The notes under the pieces: generated by a model
Seen by the model: the letters and a program-made list of their open reading frames with translations, nothing else
What the model was told of the DNA's origin: nothing
Database searches by the model: none
Translations under genes and position numbers: made by a program
In this document: piece by piece, positions 640 to 57,339 of the stretch
How positions within the stretch are numbered: position 1 is the first letter of the stretch
How the letters are laid out: each line of letters begins with the position of its first letter
Assembly (NCBI GenBank): GCA_023248215.1
Contig: JAHFEW010000014.1
Location: forward strand, 5,706-63,241
Length of the DNA: 57,536 bases
Source of the DNA: Nitrospira sp.
GTDB lineage: Bacteria > Nitrospirota > Nitrospiria > Nitrospirales > Nitrospiraceae
Direction: 5' to 3'

Positions 640-677
640 TTCCGATTGCTCACGCCTCACGAACGACGACCGGGGAG

Positions 678-717
678 GACGGCCTTTTTGACCATCCTGC
701 GAGATACGCTTCACGAT
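678..717 (-). repeat. Fragment A of the CAGGATGG dispersed element plus the CGTGAAGCGTATCTCG motif
   Basis: Bases 678-700 read gacggcctttttgaccatcc followed by tgc, matching one terminus of the dispersed element described at 16911-17037. Bases 699-715 are the reverse complement of CGTGAAGCGTATCTCGC, a second repeated motif also found at 6721-6738 and 34668-34685. Read on the minus strand, the order is Nudix stop codon, CGTGAAGCG motif, element end. The T-run after GGCC could terminate plus-strand transcription. Confidence 0.65.
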
Positions 718-2635: not shown

Positions 2636-2718
2636 CAAACGAGCAGGCCATTTAAAAAACAATTTACGGACTCGAAATATACGAAGCCGTGTAACACTCG
2701 CAGGATCAGAAGCGCCCA

Positions 2719-2956
2719 CGGGATGTTCAAAAAGGCTGCCAGCGCGGCCGCAGCGAGGTCCACGGCGCGAAGAATAATGAGCGCCACGTTTGTGGACGCC
2801 GGTGAGACGGTGAGCTGGCCGTGTCTTCGGCGGAGGCGTCACGTTCTTACCCGCCCACCCCGAGCCTGCCGAGACAGGCTCTGTTCCCATGGGGGGTACG
2901 TTGAGGTTCTGAGCGATGCGAGAACAAAGCTGGCGGACTTTTTCAACATCCTGCTA
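2719..2956 (+). repeat. Dispersed CAGGATGG element, long copy B
   Basis: The left end (gggatgttcaaaaaggctgc, 2720-2739) and right end (ggcggactttttcaacatcc, 2932-2951) are inverted copies of each other. Internal landmarks shared with other copies are the gcggccgcagcgagg stretch (2745-2759), gcgccacgtttgtgga, the small hairpin gcctgccgagacaggc and gagcgatgcgagaacaaagc. It ends in CTAG like copies E and G. It fills most of the otsA upstream region. The rest of the 2488-3005 gap holds tandem CGTTCGT-like low-complexity sequence at 2493-2560 and no convincing gene. Confidence 0.75.
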
Positions 2957-3005
2957 GAGGTCTGATGCACCATTCAACCACTCACGCAAAGGAATCTGGA
3001 AGCGT

Positions 3006-4644: not shown

Positions 4645-6681
4645 GTGAGGCTTGACTCATGCTGCGTCACCGGCCGCCTGCTCTCGCTCGTGGCGATGGT
4701 GGGCCTCTTGCTCCTGCTTGGCGCTTGCACACAGACCTCGCACCTGTTTTCCGTCACCCGGCCGCCCGACCGGCTGGTGGATCGGCAACAACAGGCGATC
4801 GTGTCGCGGATGCGGGCCATCGCCGAACCAGACCTACGCGACAATCTCAACAGCGGTCTCCCGGCGGTTCGTGTGAGCCTGGCGGACCAGACCAACAAGA
4901 TCGCCAAATTCAAGCGTGGCCTGGTGCTGCGCACGCTCGCCGATCCCTGGGACGGACTTTCGACGATTGAGCGGGCCGGTCTGCTGGCCGCAGGAGCAGC
5001 GGAGTCAGGCGTCGAGGGACTTCCTGCCGTGATCGATATCCTTGAAGGAAGCATGGAGCGCACCGGTACGCCCTTTGCGCCGCTCACCTTCCCTGTCACC
5101 CTCGCACGCGAGGATCTCCTGGGTTTTCTCATGGAGGTCCTTGAGGATGCCTATCAAGACCGTGAACATGCGCTGCGCCATCTGTCTCCACAGGATCGAG
5201 AATGGTTGTTCACGCAGGCCCGCCCCCTCGTGGAACAATTCAGCCCTCAAATCACTCCGCCCGTCCAGTTCTCCGACGCCGAAGCCGCAGCCAAATACGC
5301 CACCCTGCTCATGCAACAGGTCGACTATGCCTCTCTGATCACCGCCGCACAACGATTGGCGCGGCTCGGCAATCGGAAATTTCTGCAGCAGTTGGACATT
5401 GTGTTCCACAACAGAACACCGATCGCCCATTCGATTCCCGGCATCACGGGCGATGTGCTCCTTGCTCAGCAGACCCCGTACGGATTGCTCCTCGTGGGCG
5501 GCCGCGGTCCGAATACCTACGACCTGGAGAAGGGCGCCGCGCTGATCATCGATCTCGGCGGCAACGACACCTACCGTGGATTCATCGGCGCGAGCGCGAA
5601 CAGTGATCTAGGCAACAGCATCGTCATCGACTTGAGCGGTAACGATACTTATCAGCCCGCCCCACTGGGGCTCGCCACGGGACGAGGAGGAATCGGCATC
5701 GTCATCGACCATGGCGGGAACGATACCTATCACTTGGCACCAGGCTCCGGCGGGGTCGGGCTGGCGGGGCTTGGCATCCTGTATGATGGAGAGGGGCAGG
5801 ATATTTACGAGGGCAGCCGTTTCACCCAAGGTGCGGCCTTCGGCGGATTCGGCTTGCTGGTGGATCGCGCCGGGGACGATCGGTATACGAGCTTCGGTTA
5901 TGCACTTGGATTCGGCGCCCCCTTGGGTGTGGGTGCGGTCATCGATGCGTCCGGAAACGATTCGTACGAATGTGGCGGGCGATATCCTAGCGCCTACAAT
6001 GCGGCCGACGCCCCGGAGGCGCAACCTCACGAAACCACCTATCAATACGATTGTTTCGGACTGGGCACGGGGTCAGGACTCCGCGTCTTCAGCAAGAATC
6101 CGGCGCAACGCGCACTCAGTCTGGCGGGCGGCTGGGGGTTGCTGATCGATCTGGATGGCAACGATCGCTACCGCAGCGCGAACTTTTCTCAAGGGCACGG
6201 ATATTTTTTCGGCCTCGGCGTGAAGCTGGATCTCAATGGTGACGACGATCATCAGGCAGCTCGTTATGGTCACGGCACGGCCGCCCACTTCGGCGTCGGC
6301 CTGATCGTCGATTACCAGGGGAAGGACCGGTATGGCTCAAAGGGACCGTTCTACAACGGCGGTGCGGCATGGGACGGAAGCGTCGCCCTCGCCATCGACG
6401 GCGGCATGACGAGTGACTTCTACGACCTGCCGGCCTCGACCGGCTTGGGCATGGGCGACCTCGGAGGATGGGGACTCTTCATTGAAGAAGGCGGCGCCGA
6501 TCAATATGCGGCCAGCCGGGGGCTGGGACATGGTGCGGATACCAGCATCGGCGCCTTTTTTGATCTCGACGGCAGAGACGACTATTCCTCCGTCCCCCCA
6601 GCGACCCAAGGCTCACATCCGGAACGACTCAATCGGAAAGTCTACATCGAGAACCCTGGCAGCCTCTTCATCGACCGGTAG
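4645..6681 (+). CDS. Lipoprotein with about eleven G-x-D-x-Y repeats
   Basis: I chose GTG 4645 because caggggacct gives a ribosome-binding site and the protein then begins with a signal peptide (arginine, hydrophobic stretch VAMVGLLLLL) ending in the lipobox LLGAC. Residues up to about 290 are helical. The second half repeats a unit of roughly 25-40 residues built as hydrophobic-I-D-x-x-G-x-D-x-Y, for example GGNDTY, SGNDTY, AGDDRY, SGNDSY and DGNDRY, eleven times between 5563 and 6580. The spacing of glycines and aspartates suggests a calcium-binding beta-roll or beta-helix on the outside of the cell. It is not the RTX nonapeptide (GGxGxDxUx). I do not recognise the family. The stop codon TAG is directly continued by a copy of the dispersed element. 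Confidence 0.8.
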   Translation: MRLDSCCVTGRLLSLVAMVGLLLLLGACTQTSHLFSVTRPPDRLVDRQQQAIVSRMRAIAEPDLRDNLNSGLPAVRVSLADQTNKIAKFKRGLVLRTLADPWDGLSTIERAGLLAAGAAESGVEGLPAVIDILEGSMERTGTPFAPLTFPVTLAREDLLGFLMEVLEDAYQDREHALRHLSPQDREWLFTQARPLVEQFSPQITPPVQFSDAEAAAKYATLLMQQVDYASLITAAQRLARLGNRKFLQQLDIVFHNRTPIAHSIPGITGDVLLAQQTPYGLLLVGGRGPNTYDLEKGAALIIDLGGNDTYRGFIGASANSDLGNSIVIDLSGNDTYQPAPLGLATGRGGIGIVIDHGGNDTYHLAPGSGGVGLAGLGILYDGEGQDIYEGSRFTQGAAFGGFGLLVDRAGDDRYTSFGYALGFGAPLGVGAVIDASGNDSYECGGRYPSAYNAADAPEAQPHETTYQYDCFGLGTGSGLRVFSKNPAQRALSLAGGWGLLIDLDGNDRYRSANFSQGHGYFFGLGVKLDLNGDDDHQAARYGHGTAAHFGVGLIVDYQGKDRYGSKGPFYNGGAAWDGSVALAIDGGMTSDFYDLPASTGLGMGDLGGWGLFIEEGGADQYAASRGLGHGADTSIGAFFDLDGRDDYSSVPPATQGSHPERLNRKVYIENPGSLFIDR

Positions 6682-6738
6682 CAGGATGGTGAAAATGTCC
6701 GCCGGCTGTGCGTTCGACCCCGTGAAGCGTATCTCGTC
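6679..6738 (+). repeat. Dispersed element fragment C plus CGTGAAGCGTATCTCGTC motif
   Basis: The stop codon TAG (6679-6681) runs directly into caggatggtgaaaatgtccg, the left end of the dispersed element. Only about 28 bases of the element remain. They are followed by CGTGAAGCGTATCTCGTC at 6721-6738, an exact 18-base match to the reverse strand at 34668-34685. Confidence 0.7.
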
Positions 6739-6748
6739 TTGCCGAAAC

Positions 6749-6800
6749 ATGTTCAATGCTCAATTCTCAATTAAACACTGAAAATTGAACACTGAGCATG
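6749..6800. repeat. AT-rich imperfect palindrome, copy 2
   Basis: The arm atgttcaatgctcaattctc (from 6749) is mirrored by attgaacactgagcat (6785-6800). It is the same family as 568-639. It lies between the lipoprotein gene end and the lon promoter, so a transcription-terminator or mRNA-end role is plausible. Confidence 0.6.
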
Positions 6801-12577: not shown

Positions 12578-12670
12578 GTGCACCCGAAAGGCCTAAGCAG
12601 GCTGCGGAATCTATTTTGGTGCCCGCACGGCTCAGTGACCTGGAGGTCTGGGTCCAGGGGAGAGGACCAA

Positions 12671-12909
12671 GCGGGATACGCAAAAAGGCCGTCCAGCGCG
12701 ACCGCAGGGACGCGAGGGGGCGGGGCGTGTCCTTCTTACCCCCCGTCCGAGCCTGCCGAAACAGGCTCTGTTCCCATGGACGTACGTTGAGCCTCCGAGG
12801 TTCACGACGCGCTGAATAAAGCGCGTCACGTTTGTGAACGCCGTCGAGATAGTGAGGCGGCAGTGTCTTGTGAGAACAAAGCTGGAGGCCTTTTTTAGCA
12901 TTCCGCGAG
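12671..12909 (+). repeat. Dispersed CAGGATGG element, long copy D
   Basis: The left end is gcgggatacgcaaaaaggcc at 12671-12690 and the right end is ggaggccttttttagcattc, ending near 12904. Internal landmarks shared with copies B and F are gagcctgccgaaacaggctc (hairpin, 12749-12768), cacgtttgtgaacgc and gagaacaaagctgg. It is more diverged at both ends than copies E and G. It lies about 95 bases downstream of the 12398 gene. Confidence 0.7.
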
Positions 12910-16824: not shown

Positions 16825-16910
16825 CTCATTACCAGCAGCCTGCTAAAAACAAGTCGGTGCTTTCGAATACCGATAGAGCGCAGCCTATGCGACGACGAGG
16901 AACTAGCTCG

Positions 16911-17037
16911 CAGGATGGTCAAAAAGGCCGTCCAGCGAGGCCGCAGCGAGGCGAGGGGGCGAGGCGTACCCTTGCGGTACGTGGAGCCTCTGAGCGATGC
17001 GAGAACAAAGCTGACGGCCTTTTTCACCATCCTGCTA
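16911..17037 (+). repeat. Dispersed CAGGATGG element, short copy E (best preserved)
   Basis: Termini are CAGGATGGTCAAAAAGGCC (from 16911) and GGCCTTTTTCACCATCCTG (ending 17034), nearly perfect inverted repeats, extended by CCGTC/GACGG. Between them lie gcgaggccgcagcgaggcg, a gtacccttgcggtac hairpin (16967-16981) and gagcgatgcgagaacaaagc. The last bases CTAG hold the stop codon (17035-17037 on the minus strand) of the cyclase gene. The GC stem followed by TTTTT on both strands fits a bidirectional terminator. This copy lacks the extra internal block of copies B, D and F. Confidence 0.8.
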
Positions 17038-17847
17038 GGGTAGAATGGCGATGATACGCACGGGAGCTCCCGTGCCACCGGCGATCTTCATCGGCAAAGC
17101 CACGATCGTGGCGCCGGAGGGAGGGACTTCTTCGAGTCGCGCCACGTTTTCGAGACCATACAGACCGGCTACGCTGAGAATCCGGTGGACCACAAAATCC
17201 TGAGAGCCCCCATAGTCGATGCTGGGCGTATCAATCCCGACACCATGGATGTGTCGTTCGGCCACCAGAAACTCCGCGACTTCTTTTGAGAACCCAGGAA
17301 AATGGAGCGTCGCAGCAAGATTCGGCGTGGCCGTGCCGAAATACCGCTCGCGATCCTTCCAGTAGGCGCCCCACCCTGTCAGCATCATAACGACCGCGCC
17401 GCTCGGTATTGTGCCATGCTTGGCCTCCCAGCGCTGAATGTCTTCCAACGATAAACGGTAGTCGCGATCGCCGGCCACAGCAGCTCGTACATCAATCACC
17501 ACGGCAGGCCCCATCAGGCGCTCGACGGGGATACCCTCGATCCCCGCTTGTCCCTGCGCAAAATGAACGGGAGCATCCATGTGGGTTCCGGCATGTTCCG
17601 ATAGCGCTACTTGTCCCGTCGCGTACCAGGCTTCGGTCGTCGTCCCTCCCCGCACCGTTGAGTCCCGGTGAAATGGAAGATTGCTCGGCCAGACCTGCGT
17701 GGTCTCGTCAAACGTATAGGTGAGGTCAACGAGACGCTGTGCGGCCTTGGCGTCACACCACAAGCTCGTGGCGATCAGCAGGACGAACAACCCGACGGCC
17801 CGAGAAAGCGTCGCAGACCGATTGCCCTTTTGTTCTCTGTTCTCCAT
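17035..17847 (-). CDS. Secreted cyclase-family metal hydrolase (kynurenine formamidase-like)
   Basis: Members of the cyclase family are metal-dependent amidases or cyclases such as kynurenine formamidase and isatin hydrolase. The metal-binding signature H-x-G-T-H-x-D-x-P-x-H is intact at residues 85-95. I chose ATG 17847, with aaggag 5 bases upstream, which gives 270 residues with a signal peptide (AVGLFVLLIATSLWCDAKA). The enzyme is therefore probably periplasmic, which is less usual for kynurenine formamidase. It is divergent from the RuBisCO-like gene with 124 bases between the starts. Its TAG stop lies within the terminal CTAG of the dispersed element. The substrate cannot be told. Confidence 0.85.
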   Translation of the reverse strand: MENREQKGNRSATLSRAVGLFVLLIATSLWCDAKAAQRLVDLTYTFDETTQVWPSNLPFHRDSTVRGGTTTEAWYATGQVALSEHAGTHMDAPVHFAQGQAGIEGIPVERLMGPAVVIDVRAAVAGDRDYRLSLEDIQRWEAKHGTIPSGAVVMMLTGWGAYWKDRERYFGTATPNLAATLHFPGFSKEVAEFLVAERHIHGVGIDTPSIDYGGSQDFVVHRILSVAGLYGLENVARLEEVPPSGATIVALPMKIAGGTGAPVRIIAILP

Positions 17848-23278: not shown

Positions 23279-23829
23279 AAAATCGCATTTGAATGCCCCG
23301 CCCGGAAGGGCGGGGATGAAAAATGCGTGCTGCCGGAGGCAGCAGCGATCCGGTAGAGTAGTGGCATGGCCATCAGACGAGCCAGCCACTGTGTGTACGA
23401 CACCTGCTATCATCTGGTGTGGGCGCCCAAGTATCGGAAATGGGTGTTGCAAGGGGCGATTCGGCAGCGGGTCAGGGAACTGTTTTGCGAGATTGCGGGG
23501 CATCACGGATTTGAGATTGAGGCATTGGAGGTGGACAAGGATCATGTCCATCTGTTTCTCAGTTTTCCGCCGAAGTACTCGATCGGCGCGGTGGTGGGGC
23601 TGCTGAAGGCGGTCAGCGCCAAGGAGATTCGGGAGGAGTTTCCGGAGGTCCGGAAGCAGCTGTGGGGCGGAGAGTGTTGGGAAGATGGGTATGTTGTTCG
23701 GACGGTGGGTGACAAAGTGACAGCCGATGTGATCAAGAAGTACATTCGGTTTCATGAGGCGAAGAAGAGAGGGGCTGAACAATTGGACCTCTTCTAGAAA
23801 GCCCCGCCCGGAAGGGCGGGGTTCTTTAC
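23279..23829 (+). mobile_element. IS200/IS605-family element with hairpin ends
   Basis: The same hairpin CCCCGCCCGGAAGGGCGGGG stands at both ends (23296-23315 and 23802-23821) in direct orientation around a single Y1 transposase gene. The left stem is extended by cgcattt/aaatgcg (23284-23290 and 23320-23326), the right one by gaaa/ttct. Borders are approximate. As expected for this family there are no terminal inverted repeats or target duplications. There is no tnpB gene, so it is an IS200-like minimal element. It lies inside an exported-protein gene. Confidence 0.85.
23366..23797 (+). CDS. tnpA: IS200/IS605-family HUH transposase TnpA
   Basis: TnpA cuts and joins single-stranded DNA at hairpin ends through a tyrosine-DNA link. 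The 143-residue protein has the HUH metal site at H60-V-H62 in KDHVHLFLSFPP and the catalytic Tyr126 in VTADVIKKYIRFH, both intact, and WAPKYRKWVL at the N-terminus as in IS200-type enzymes. The length is typical. It is the only gene of the element. Both end hairpins are preserved, so the element may still be active. Confidence 0.93.
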   Translation: MAIRRASHCVYDTCYHLVWAPKYRKWVLQGAIRQRVRELFCEIAGHHGFEIEALEVDKDHVHLFLSFPPKYSIGAVVGLLKAVSAKEIREEFPEVRKQLWGGECWEDGYVVRTVGDKVTADVIKKYIRFHEAKKRGAEQLDLF

Positions 23830-40174: not shown

Positions 40175-40627
40175 GTGACTGATCAGACAGCCTCTGCCAC
40201 TCCCGTTTCCCCCATACCTCCGAAGGCGGAACCCACGCCCTTCATCCGCCAACGGCCGGTCCGGATCATTATCCATACGTTCCTGGCACTCTTCGTCGTC
40301 AGCCTGATCGCCTTTCGCTTCGTACCCGGCTGGCTGGATCCCGACTTTTCCAAGCACATCGAAGGCCATCGTGTGATGGTGGGCATGGACCGCCAACAGG
40401 TCCTCAAGGCCTGGGGTTCACCGAATACGATGAACGTGTCGCACACCAGCGACGGTCTGCGGCGTGAAGAATGGGTTTTTGAGGATTGGGAAAGCCCAGC
40501 AGTGGTCAAACACCGCTATCTCTATTTCGAAGAAGGGAAGTTAATCGGCGGGCATTTTTCGGGATCGGATGTGCGCCTGCCACTCCCCTCTGCTCCCGAG
40601 ATGGTCAAGCCTAAGGGTCACCCCTAA
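40175..40627 (+). CDS. Membrane-anchored SmpA/OmlA-like small domain protein
   Basis: GTG 40175 follows ggaagga, so the product is 150 residues; the frame is open further upstream. A proline-rich start leads to one membrane helix (IIIHTFLALFVVSLIAF). The outer domain contains VMVGMDRQQVLKAWGSPNTM, then REEWVFEDW and YLYFEEGKLIG: the G-M-x-x-x-x-V-x-x-x-x-G-x-P pattern of SmpA/BamE-like domains. These help outer-membrane assembly in other proteins. The stop codon TAA abuts copy F of the dispersed element. A TTGACG box lies at 40096. Confidence 0.75.
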   Translation: MTDQTASATPVSPIPPKAEPTPFIRQRPVRIIIHTFLALFVVSLIAFRFVPGWLDPDFSKHIEGHRVMVGMDRQQVLKAWGSPNTMNVSHTSDGLRREEWVFEDWESPAVVKHRYLYFEEGKLIGGHFSGSDVRLPLPSAPEMVKPKGHP

Positions 40628-40799
40628 CAGGGCGTTGAAAAGGACCGCCAGCATCGTTCTCGCATCATTCAGACCCTCAACGTACCGCGCATGGGAAGGA
40701 GCCTGTCTCGGCAGGCGCGGGTGGGGCGGGTAAGAATATGACGCCTCGGCCCTTCATTCGCTGCGGCCTTGCTGGACGGCCTTTTTGAACACCCTGCGG
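40625..40799 (-). repeat. Dispersed CAGGATGG element, long copy F, reversed
   Basis: Starts directly at the stop codon: taa, then cagggcgttgaaaaggaccg. The other end is gacggcctttttgaacaccc at 40776-40795. The inside, read in reverse, shows gttctcgcatcattcagacc (the gagcgatgcgagaac block), gcctgtctcggcaggc and gctgcggcc. Orientation is opposite to copies B, D, E and G. Confidence 0.75.
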
Positions 40800-40881
40800 A
40801 CACTTCGATAGACACCGCAGCCAGGTGCTACCTTTCCTATCAAGTTGGCTCACAGATAGTTCTTCAGCAACCTCCTAGCGG

Positions 40882-56487: not shown

Positions 56488-56841
56488 AAACGCACCTCCG
56501 AAAAGCAGGTGGTTGTCGCGTGGCAGGTTTTTATCCATCAACCATGGAGGCGTTCTTCTTCCATTGTACGCCCGAGTTGTGAATGGGAACAGGGTCCCCT
56601 CCCCACGTCCGGATGCGGACGATCCCTCACCAACCGGCCTCACCGGGGGGATGGATCTGCAGGTTTTGGGAGAGGGGCCGACCATGCCGTGAAGAAACCC
56701 TGCGTCTCAGTGCGCCGCCGAGTCCGTTTCACAAAAACTCCCGACTTCGTGAGCGAGAGCGCCAGTAGGATGCTGAAAAACCATTGCGAGCCTTCGGAAA
56801 CACAGCAAGCGCGGAGTCGGAGACGGCATGGAGAGAGCCCA

Positions 56842-56986
56842 CAGGATGGTCAAAAAGGCCGTCCAGCCAGGCCGCAGCGAGGTGCACGGCGCGATGAATA
56901 AAGAGCGCCACGTTTGCGCACGGGCGCGAGTCGGTGAGCGCCCAGTGTCCCCACAAAGCTGGCGGACTGTTTCACCATCCTGCTAG
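56842..56986 (+). repeat. Dispersed CAGGATGG element, copy G
   Basis: Left end caggatggtcaaaaaggccg (56842-56861), right end gcggactgtttcaccatcct (56962-56981) followed by gctag. The middle holds ccaggccgcagcgagg, gcgccacgtttgcgca and cacaaagctgg. Its terminal CTAG carries the stop of the minus-strand gene at 56983-57339. It is intermediate in length between copies E and B. Confidence 0.78.
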
Positions 56987-57339
56987 TCGGCGTAGCGCAG
57001 ATCGCGGGCATCGGCGAGGGAGAGGTACGCTTCGCCCCATTGATGCGGACTCGCGAGGCTCCAAGGTTCATCGAGATGGACCGGCCTGAACCGCAGACCG
57101 TAGAGACCTCCATAGACCAGATGGGCCAATCCCGACCCCGAATCCTCCACTAACTGACCATAGGCTGAGCAGGTAGGCGTCTGCTCGTTGTCGCTCCAGC
57201 CAGTCACCCAGCACCACTCGCCGGCAGGATTTCGGTCATAGAGCCGAACCTGTACCACCGGTCGAGCTGGGCCAACTTCCTTGAACCTCGCAAAGAAACT
57301 GGCATCGCAATTTTCGTTCGATTCAACTTCCACAATCAC
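56983..57339 (-). CDS. Hypothetical protein ended by a dispersed-element stop codon
   Basis: The 118-residue product has a beta-rich plan: VEVESNENCDASFFARFKEV, RPVVQVRLYDRNPAGEWCWV, and SAYGQLVEDSGSGLAHLVYG with a GLRFRPVHLDEPWSLASPHQ segment. No family recognised. The start overlaps the stop of the gene to its right in ATGA. The TAG stop codon is the CTAG of the dispersed element at the element's right end, so the last residues may be altered by the insertion. Confidence 0.7.
   Translation of the reverse strand: MIVEVESNENCDASFFARFKEVGPARPVVQVRLYDRNPAGEWCWVTGWSDNEQTPTCSAYGQLVEDSGSGLAHLVYGGLYGLRFRPVHLDEPWSLASPHQWGEAYLSLADARDLRYAD

Follow-up and report, generated by a model that had tools for sequence, protein, structure and literature searches.

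Copies of an IS5-derived MITE at stop codons in Nitrospira: target duplication, orientation and age of the insertions

Element copies and gene ends in the window

The window analysed here is a whole stretch of 57,536 nucleotides from Nitrospira sp. (contig C133:5706-63241 of a genome of 4,690,508 bp, 4.69 Mb, designated G000), which carries several copies of a repeated element whose ends are named A, B and C. Genes were predicted with our own caller, trained on the codon usage of the fetched stretches. Four of the copies abut the end of a gene. Copy 3 (6678..6710, plus strand) is a 32-nt remnant of the A arm that has lost its B arm, and its boundary GTAG (6678-6681) holds the stop of a plus-strand gene at 4690..6681, described as a lipoprotein gene in the sequence-only reading and without a Pfam match; the TAG at 6679-6681 is the element boundary and is followed immediately by CAGGATGGTG. 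Copy 5 (16832..17038, minus strand) has its A edge, CTAG, at 17035-17038, its B end at 16910 and a decayed C end at about 16832, and a putative cyclase gene (PF04199; 17035..17847, minus strand) has its TAG stop within this target duplication. Copy 6 (40624..40878, plus strand) extends from an A edge CTAA (40624-40627) through B at about 40798 to a C edge CTAG (40875-40878); the TAA (40625-40627) of the gene at 40175..40627, on the plus strand, lies in the A-edge duplication and is followed by CAGGGCGTTG. At copy 7 (56762..56986, minus strand; A edge CTAG at 56983-56986, B at 56841, C at about 56762), the A-edge duplication likewise provides the TAG of the minus-strand gene at 56983..57339.

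The sequence-only reading had reported four gene ends at an element boundary, and all four are present in the window; it missed, however, that every one of these stops falls in the tetranucleotide at the A end of the element. The boundary is CTAG at 17035-17038 and 56983-56986, CTAA at 40624-40627 and GTAG at 6678-6681, and the motif is better written as YTAR than as CTAG alone. Two further copies have no stop at their edges, namely copy 2 (2640..2957, minus strand; A end CTAG at 2954-2957, B at about 2718 and a weak C at about 2640) and copy 4 (12594..12909, minus strand; A edge CTCG at 12906-12909, B at 12671, C at about 12594). The repeat search and TIR scan also recovered a fragment at 677..703 (plus strand) that consists of a B end only, with no A end found.

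Other repeats occur in the same stretch. An AT-rich repeat (TTCAATGCTCAATTCTCAATTA...) is found in two intergenic regions (565-640 and 6753-6796), the second of which occupies the place of the lost remainder of copy 3, and a GC-rich hairpin, GCCCCGCCCGGAAGGGCGGGG, is present as two 25-nt direct copies at 23291-23315 and 23797-23821, 506 bp apart.

Structure of the element, its target and its parent transposon

Its sequence places the element among the non-autonomous IS5-family transposons, as a MITE belonging to the genus Nitrospira. It was present in all 29 Nitrospira genomes compared, and in G000 its terminal motif gave 290 matches, as against 6 for a reversed control pattern; our literature search found no paper describing this family. 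The element was also seen in two contigs filed under other taxa (JAHBXU010000001.1, L151, filed as Planctomycetaceae, and CAADGJ010000027.1, L199, filed as Nitrosospira), which are probably misbinned Nitrospira DNA and possibly the result of transfer.

Comparison of near-identical copies gives the layout YTAR, CAGGATGNNGAAAAAGTCCGCCAGC (A end), palindrome, B copy, 75-nt arm, C end, YTAR. The element is non-coding and about 200-330 bp long, and the palindrome formed by A and its inverted copy B (GCTGGACGGCCTTTTTGNNCATCCTGC) closes at about 126 nt, or at about 190 or 240 nt in other copies, its loop holding optional palindromic modules. The B arm was considered as the element end and rejected, since young copies place the real outer end, C (GAGTTTTTCCGCAGCCTG), about 75 nt further out, where it is followed by YTAR. 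The two bases NN of the A and B ends co-vary by subfamily (CG/CG, CT/AG, TT/AA and GT/AC), and compensatory double changes numbered 20 in the CT subfamily and 13 in the TT subfamily, compared with 3.5 and 2.4, respectively, in shuffled pairings. The CGG subfamily is the youngest, with a nearest-neighbour identity of about 1.0 among its copies. A nested palindromic module of the CCGAGCCTGTCTCGACAGGCTCGGGG... type lies in the loops of several copies (window 2829-2892, 12747-12779 and 40699-40751). Within the TT-type copies of G000, the reading frame running on from the boundary TAG (CAG GAT GTT GAA AAA GTC CGC CAG ...) meets no stop across the entire A-B palindrome, so that read-through would add about 42 residues. 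For annotators, open frames that cross these elements are probably not genes.

In young copies the tetranucleotides on the two sides vary in step (CTAG/CTAG, CTAA/CTAA, TTAG/TTAG), and this joint change among near-identical sequences indicates a 4-bp target duplication of the form YTAR. Among the listed copies of G000, the two edges matched exactly in 37 of the 62 in which both were recognised, compared with 23.5 expected by shuffling and a maximum of 33 over 2000 shuffles. An IS630-type TA duplication was rejected because the co-varying bases are four and not two. YTAR is the documented target of IS5 (PMC10359306). The preference for a TAG/CTAG target that the sequence-only reading had proposed is borne out in a stronger form, as an IS5-type YTAR that is duplicated on insertion. 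Elsewhere in G000 (C188:23232, C188:26863 and C21:246), older relatives that end in CAGGCTGTTG or TAGGATGTTGAACATG lie against both TGA and TAG stops, sometimes one base off the boundary.

Candidate parent elements of 1314-1317 bp, with a perfect 16-bp TIR (CAGGCTGCGGAAAAAC) and TTAG or CTAG duplications, were found in three other genomes (G001, G018 and G020). Their transposase, of about 340-450 codons, is of the IS5_4 type (NCBIfam NF033581, transpos_IS5_4, E 4.5e-83) and matches the Pfam families DUF772 and DDE_Tnp_1. The C end of the MITE agrees with the ends of these insertion sequences over 18 bp, and the A end over 15 bp with 1 mismatch. The MITE has no transposase gene of its own and occurs in many copies, the recent ones near-identical, and in G000 the parent survives only as a decayed, broken remnant. 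An IS701 transposase (PF13546) was rejected as the parent, being present in 1 of 29 genomes only and not adjacent to the TIR of the MITE, as was the sole PF01609 match of G000 itself (L124), which lacks a matching TIR.

Stop codons, orientation and age of the insertions

At least 114 copies were located in G000, as a sample drawn from pattern searches and fetched stretches and not as a census. When these listed copies were tabulated against stop codons, as the sequence-only reading had suggested, an excess appeared: a stop lay exactly in the A-edge tetranucleotide of 43 of the 114, and in the C-edge tetranucleotide of 4 of the 62 recognised C edges, whereas no other distance from an element edge was shared by more than 5 stops. 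Among YTAR sites outside elements where insertion would interrupt no called gene, and with both ends summed, stops account for 16-22%, depending on the variant of the calculation, and for 24-25% when promoter-side DNA is excluded. The copies lay between divergent genes in 5 cases and between convergent genes in 28; such a rarity of divergent contexts is expected if promoter insertions are lost.

The orthologues show which came first, the stop or the element. The sequence-only reading had suggested that the copies add a stop; its proposed comparison with orthologues lacking the element contradicts this, as these end at the same stop codon. For the gene at 40175-40627, 27 of 28 orthologues stop at the same codon, nearly all with no recognisable element, and for the gene at 4690-6681 all 29 orthologues in the genus do so. 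Many cyclase orthologues free of the element also share the stop codon, as in ATTCTTCCT|TAG, where the site is TTAG. Since the stop is shared by element-free orthologues and retained by the duplication, it preceded the insertion and served as its target.

Two at least of the window insertions, those at the stops of the 4690-6681 and cyclase genes, predate speciation, as read from the sequences of the species that share them. An element or a short A-end remnant follows the 4690-6681 stop in about two thirds of the 29 species, including some in which the protein is only 78-79% identical, and the cyclase stop carries the element in at least four other species (G002, G018, G020 and G028). Weaker evidence comes from the gene at 40175-40627, with decayed element-like sequence after the stop in two genomes (G015 and G019). 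From the cyclase stop, B lies at a distance of 128 nt in G000, 241 in G002, 191 in G020 and 194 in G018 (orthologues L351, L352, L356 and L358); the insertion is the same, but its internal palindromic modules differ by species, which suggests that loop modules are swapped or inserted in place.

The copies were also compared by orientation and age. Of the young (CGG) copies listed in G000, 5 of 21 are at stops, 4 facing the gene with A and 1 with C, which does not differ from the 25% expectation (p 1.0). The older listed copies are at stops in 44 of 93 cases, 39 A-facing and about 5 C-facing, with p about 2e-6 against the same expectation in total and about 1e-12 for the A-facing copies. In N. 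defluvii, 10 of 29 young copies are at stops (4 A and 6 C; p 0.28), as are 6 A and 1 C of its 13 other copies. Across the 29 genomes, copies with the exact young A end are at stops in 27 of 66 two-edged cases (16 A and 11 C), which exceeds 25% (p 0.004), although orthologous copies in different species are not independent and inflate such genus-wide counts; stop enrichment may partly begin early. Young and older copies differ in orientation with a Fisher p of 0.006 to 0.012, a comparison in which age and subfamily are confounded, since almost all of the young copies, which show no bias, are CGG and the older, biased ones are CT/TT. Preferential detection of the A end was rejected as the cause: copies of all ages found by their B end alone, among those listed in G000, are still 39 A-facing to 6 C-facing at stops, and an A end accompanies all but 7 of the 110 B ends.

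Hairpin, survival at gene ends and known systems

The A-B hairpin has a GC stem with flanking A and T runs, T5 being present, and resembles a bidirectional terminator; a role as terminator may be proposed from these features. Folding was strong in copy 5 (-65.3 kcal/mol, z -6.6) and in copy 7 (z -4.2). Copy 6 folds no better than shuffled sequence (z +1.3), and copy 3, with no B arm, cannot form the hairpin; given its loss in some ancient copies at gene ends, these two among them, such a function would not be universal. Compensation in the stem was also rejected as proof of a gene-end role, since pairing is equally good away from stops (0.923 at stops, 0.909 elsewhere, p 0.18), and the compensatory changes could possibly come from DNA-level correction between the arms.

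Our findings suggest that target choice, followed by survival that depends on orientation, probably explains the coincidence with stop codons. IS5-family transposases of Nitrospira would mobilise the MITE and insert it at YTAR, with duplication of the four bases. Any TAG or TAA that has C or T before it is itself a YTAR, so gene ends offer many targets, and the duplication restores the stop on both sides and leaves the protein unchanged. Copies in promoters and coding regions would be lost after insertion, and those that coincide with a stop and point their A end at the gene would survive longest. There the long hairpin begins immediately after the stop codon and could terminate transcription, protect the end of the mRNA or take part in its processing, or slow the terminating ribosome, as REPs near stops do in E. 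coli. The suggestion of the sequence-only reading that selection keeps the gene-end copies is supported by the excess among older copies, their one-way orientation and the insertions shared across species; selective survival of A-facing copies is the best reading of these data and a probable one.

Several other explanations were weighed against this reading. The supply of targets together with purifying selection against coding and promoter insertions would suffice for the youngest copies of G000 and N. defluvii and for the avoidance of divergent regions, but among the older copies it can account neither for the 39 that face the gene with A, as opposed to 5 with C, nor for the 44 of 93 at stops, and we regard it as rather unlikely as the whole explanation. 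The orientation could instead have arisen at insertion, with no selection, if the older CT/TT subfamilies entered gene ends preferentially A-facing, perhaps through a related transposase with the TIR CAGGCTGTTGACAAAC. The genus does contain related insertion sequences that end in CAGGCTGTTGACAAAC or CAGTGTGTTGACAAAC and have mostly YTAR duplications, a tendency to face the gene with A is already visible among CT/TT copies whose duplications are intact, and CT/TT copies in other species are at stops in 14 A to 5 C cases. YTAR is, however, identical on both strands, a stop has no DNA signature beyond YTAR on which a transposase could orient itself, and an extended target motif or GC asymmetry was rejected as the cause after none was seen beside older copies away from stops; this alternative, the main one to the favoured reading, seems to us unlikely, if still worth serious attention.

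The reduction of several ancient gene-end copies to their first 12-32 nt beside the stop would also fit a process in which contact with a gene protects a copy from deletion on that side, making gene-end copies commoner whatever their function. Such shielding predicts no preference of orientation, and the bias persists when the search uses the B end, the one closer to the C edge; we therefore hold it to be improbable. That the element itself provided the stop, by insertion inside or beyond genes with truncation or ending of the proteins at a new TAG, is hardly credible: reading into the A end does meet TAG in one frame, but in CT/TT copies the second frame has a TGA 11 nt inside that is used in 1 copy against 43 boundary stops, and for the genes tested it is refuted by the orthologous proteins, whose last residue is the same whether or not the element is present.

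On the reading favoured here, of target choice and then orientation-dependent survival, the family would show clearly how a transposon can be rendered harmless by nothing more than its target specificity, since the stop that is hit is duplicated, and a genus-wide natural experiment that separates the site of insertion from the site of survival. If the A-facing copies are functional, dozens of genes in these nitrifiers would have in common a 3' regulatory end derived from a mobile element. A stronger proposal is put forward tentatively and appears to us possible, if doubtful: time and again within the genus, the MITE would have been domesticated to supply an mRNA 3' end ready-made, with retention confined to insertions that place the hairpin directly after the stop. 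Were it true, dozens of Nitrospira genes would share an element-derived terminator or attenuator of translation termination.

By its sequence, the element is one of the IS5-derived MITEs. Its TIR is identical over 16 bp to that of the IS5_4-type insertion sequences of Nitrospira (IS5 group), and the YTAR duplication is common to both; unlike IS5-family insertion sequences, it is non-coding and has an A-B palindrome with a 75-nt arm to the C end. The enterobacterial 127-bp repeats ERIC/IRU, whose target duplication is TA, appear unrelated to it in sequence and differ from its 4-bp YTAR duplication. They are similar in being MITE-like, with a palindrome of about 126 nt, and in lying often downstream of genes, and ERIC acts on the mRNA upstream of it in an orientation-dependent way (PMC2229807). 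REPs are likewise hairpins close to gene ends, and within 15 nt of a stop they lower translation (PMC12306157), but they are 20-40 nt long with a GTAG-type foot, have no target duplication and are associated with RAYT transposases, in contrast to the YTAR duplication and IS5 TIR of the Nitrospira MITE. Intergenic stem-loops and bidirectional terminators share with it an A run, a GC stem and a T run beside stops, and stem-loops are enriched behind stops at the 3' ends of many bacteria (PMC1590033); the Nitrospira hairpin differs from these in that it is mobile and inserts at a defined site.
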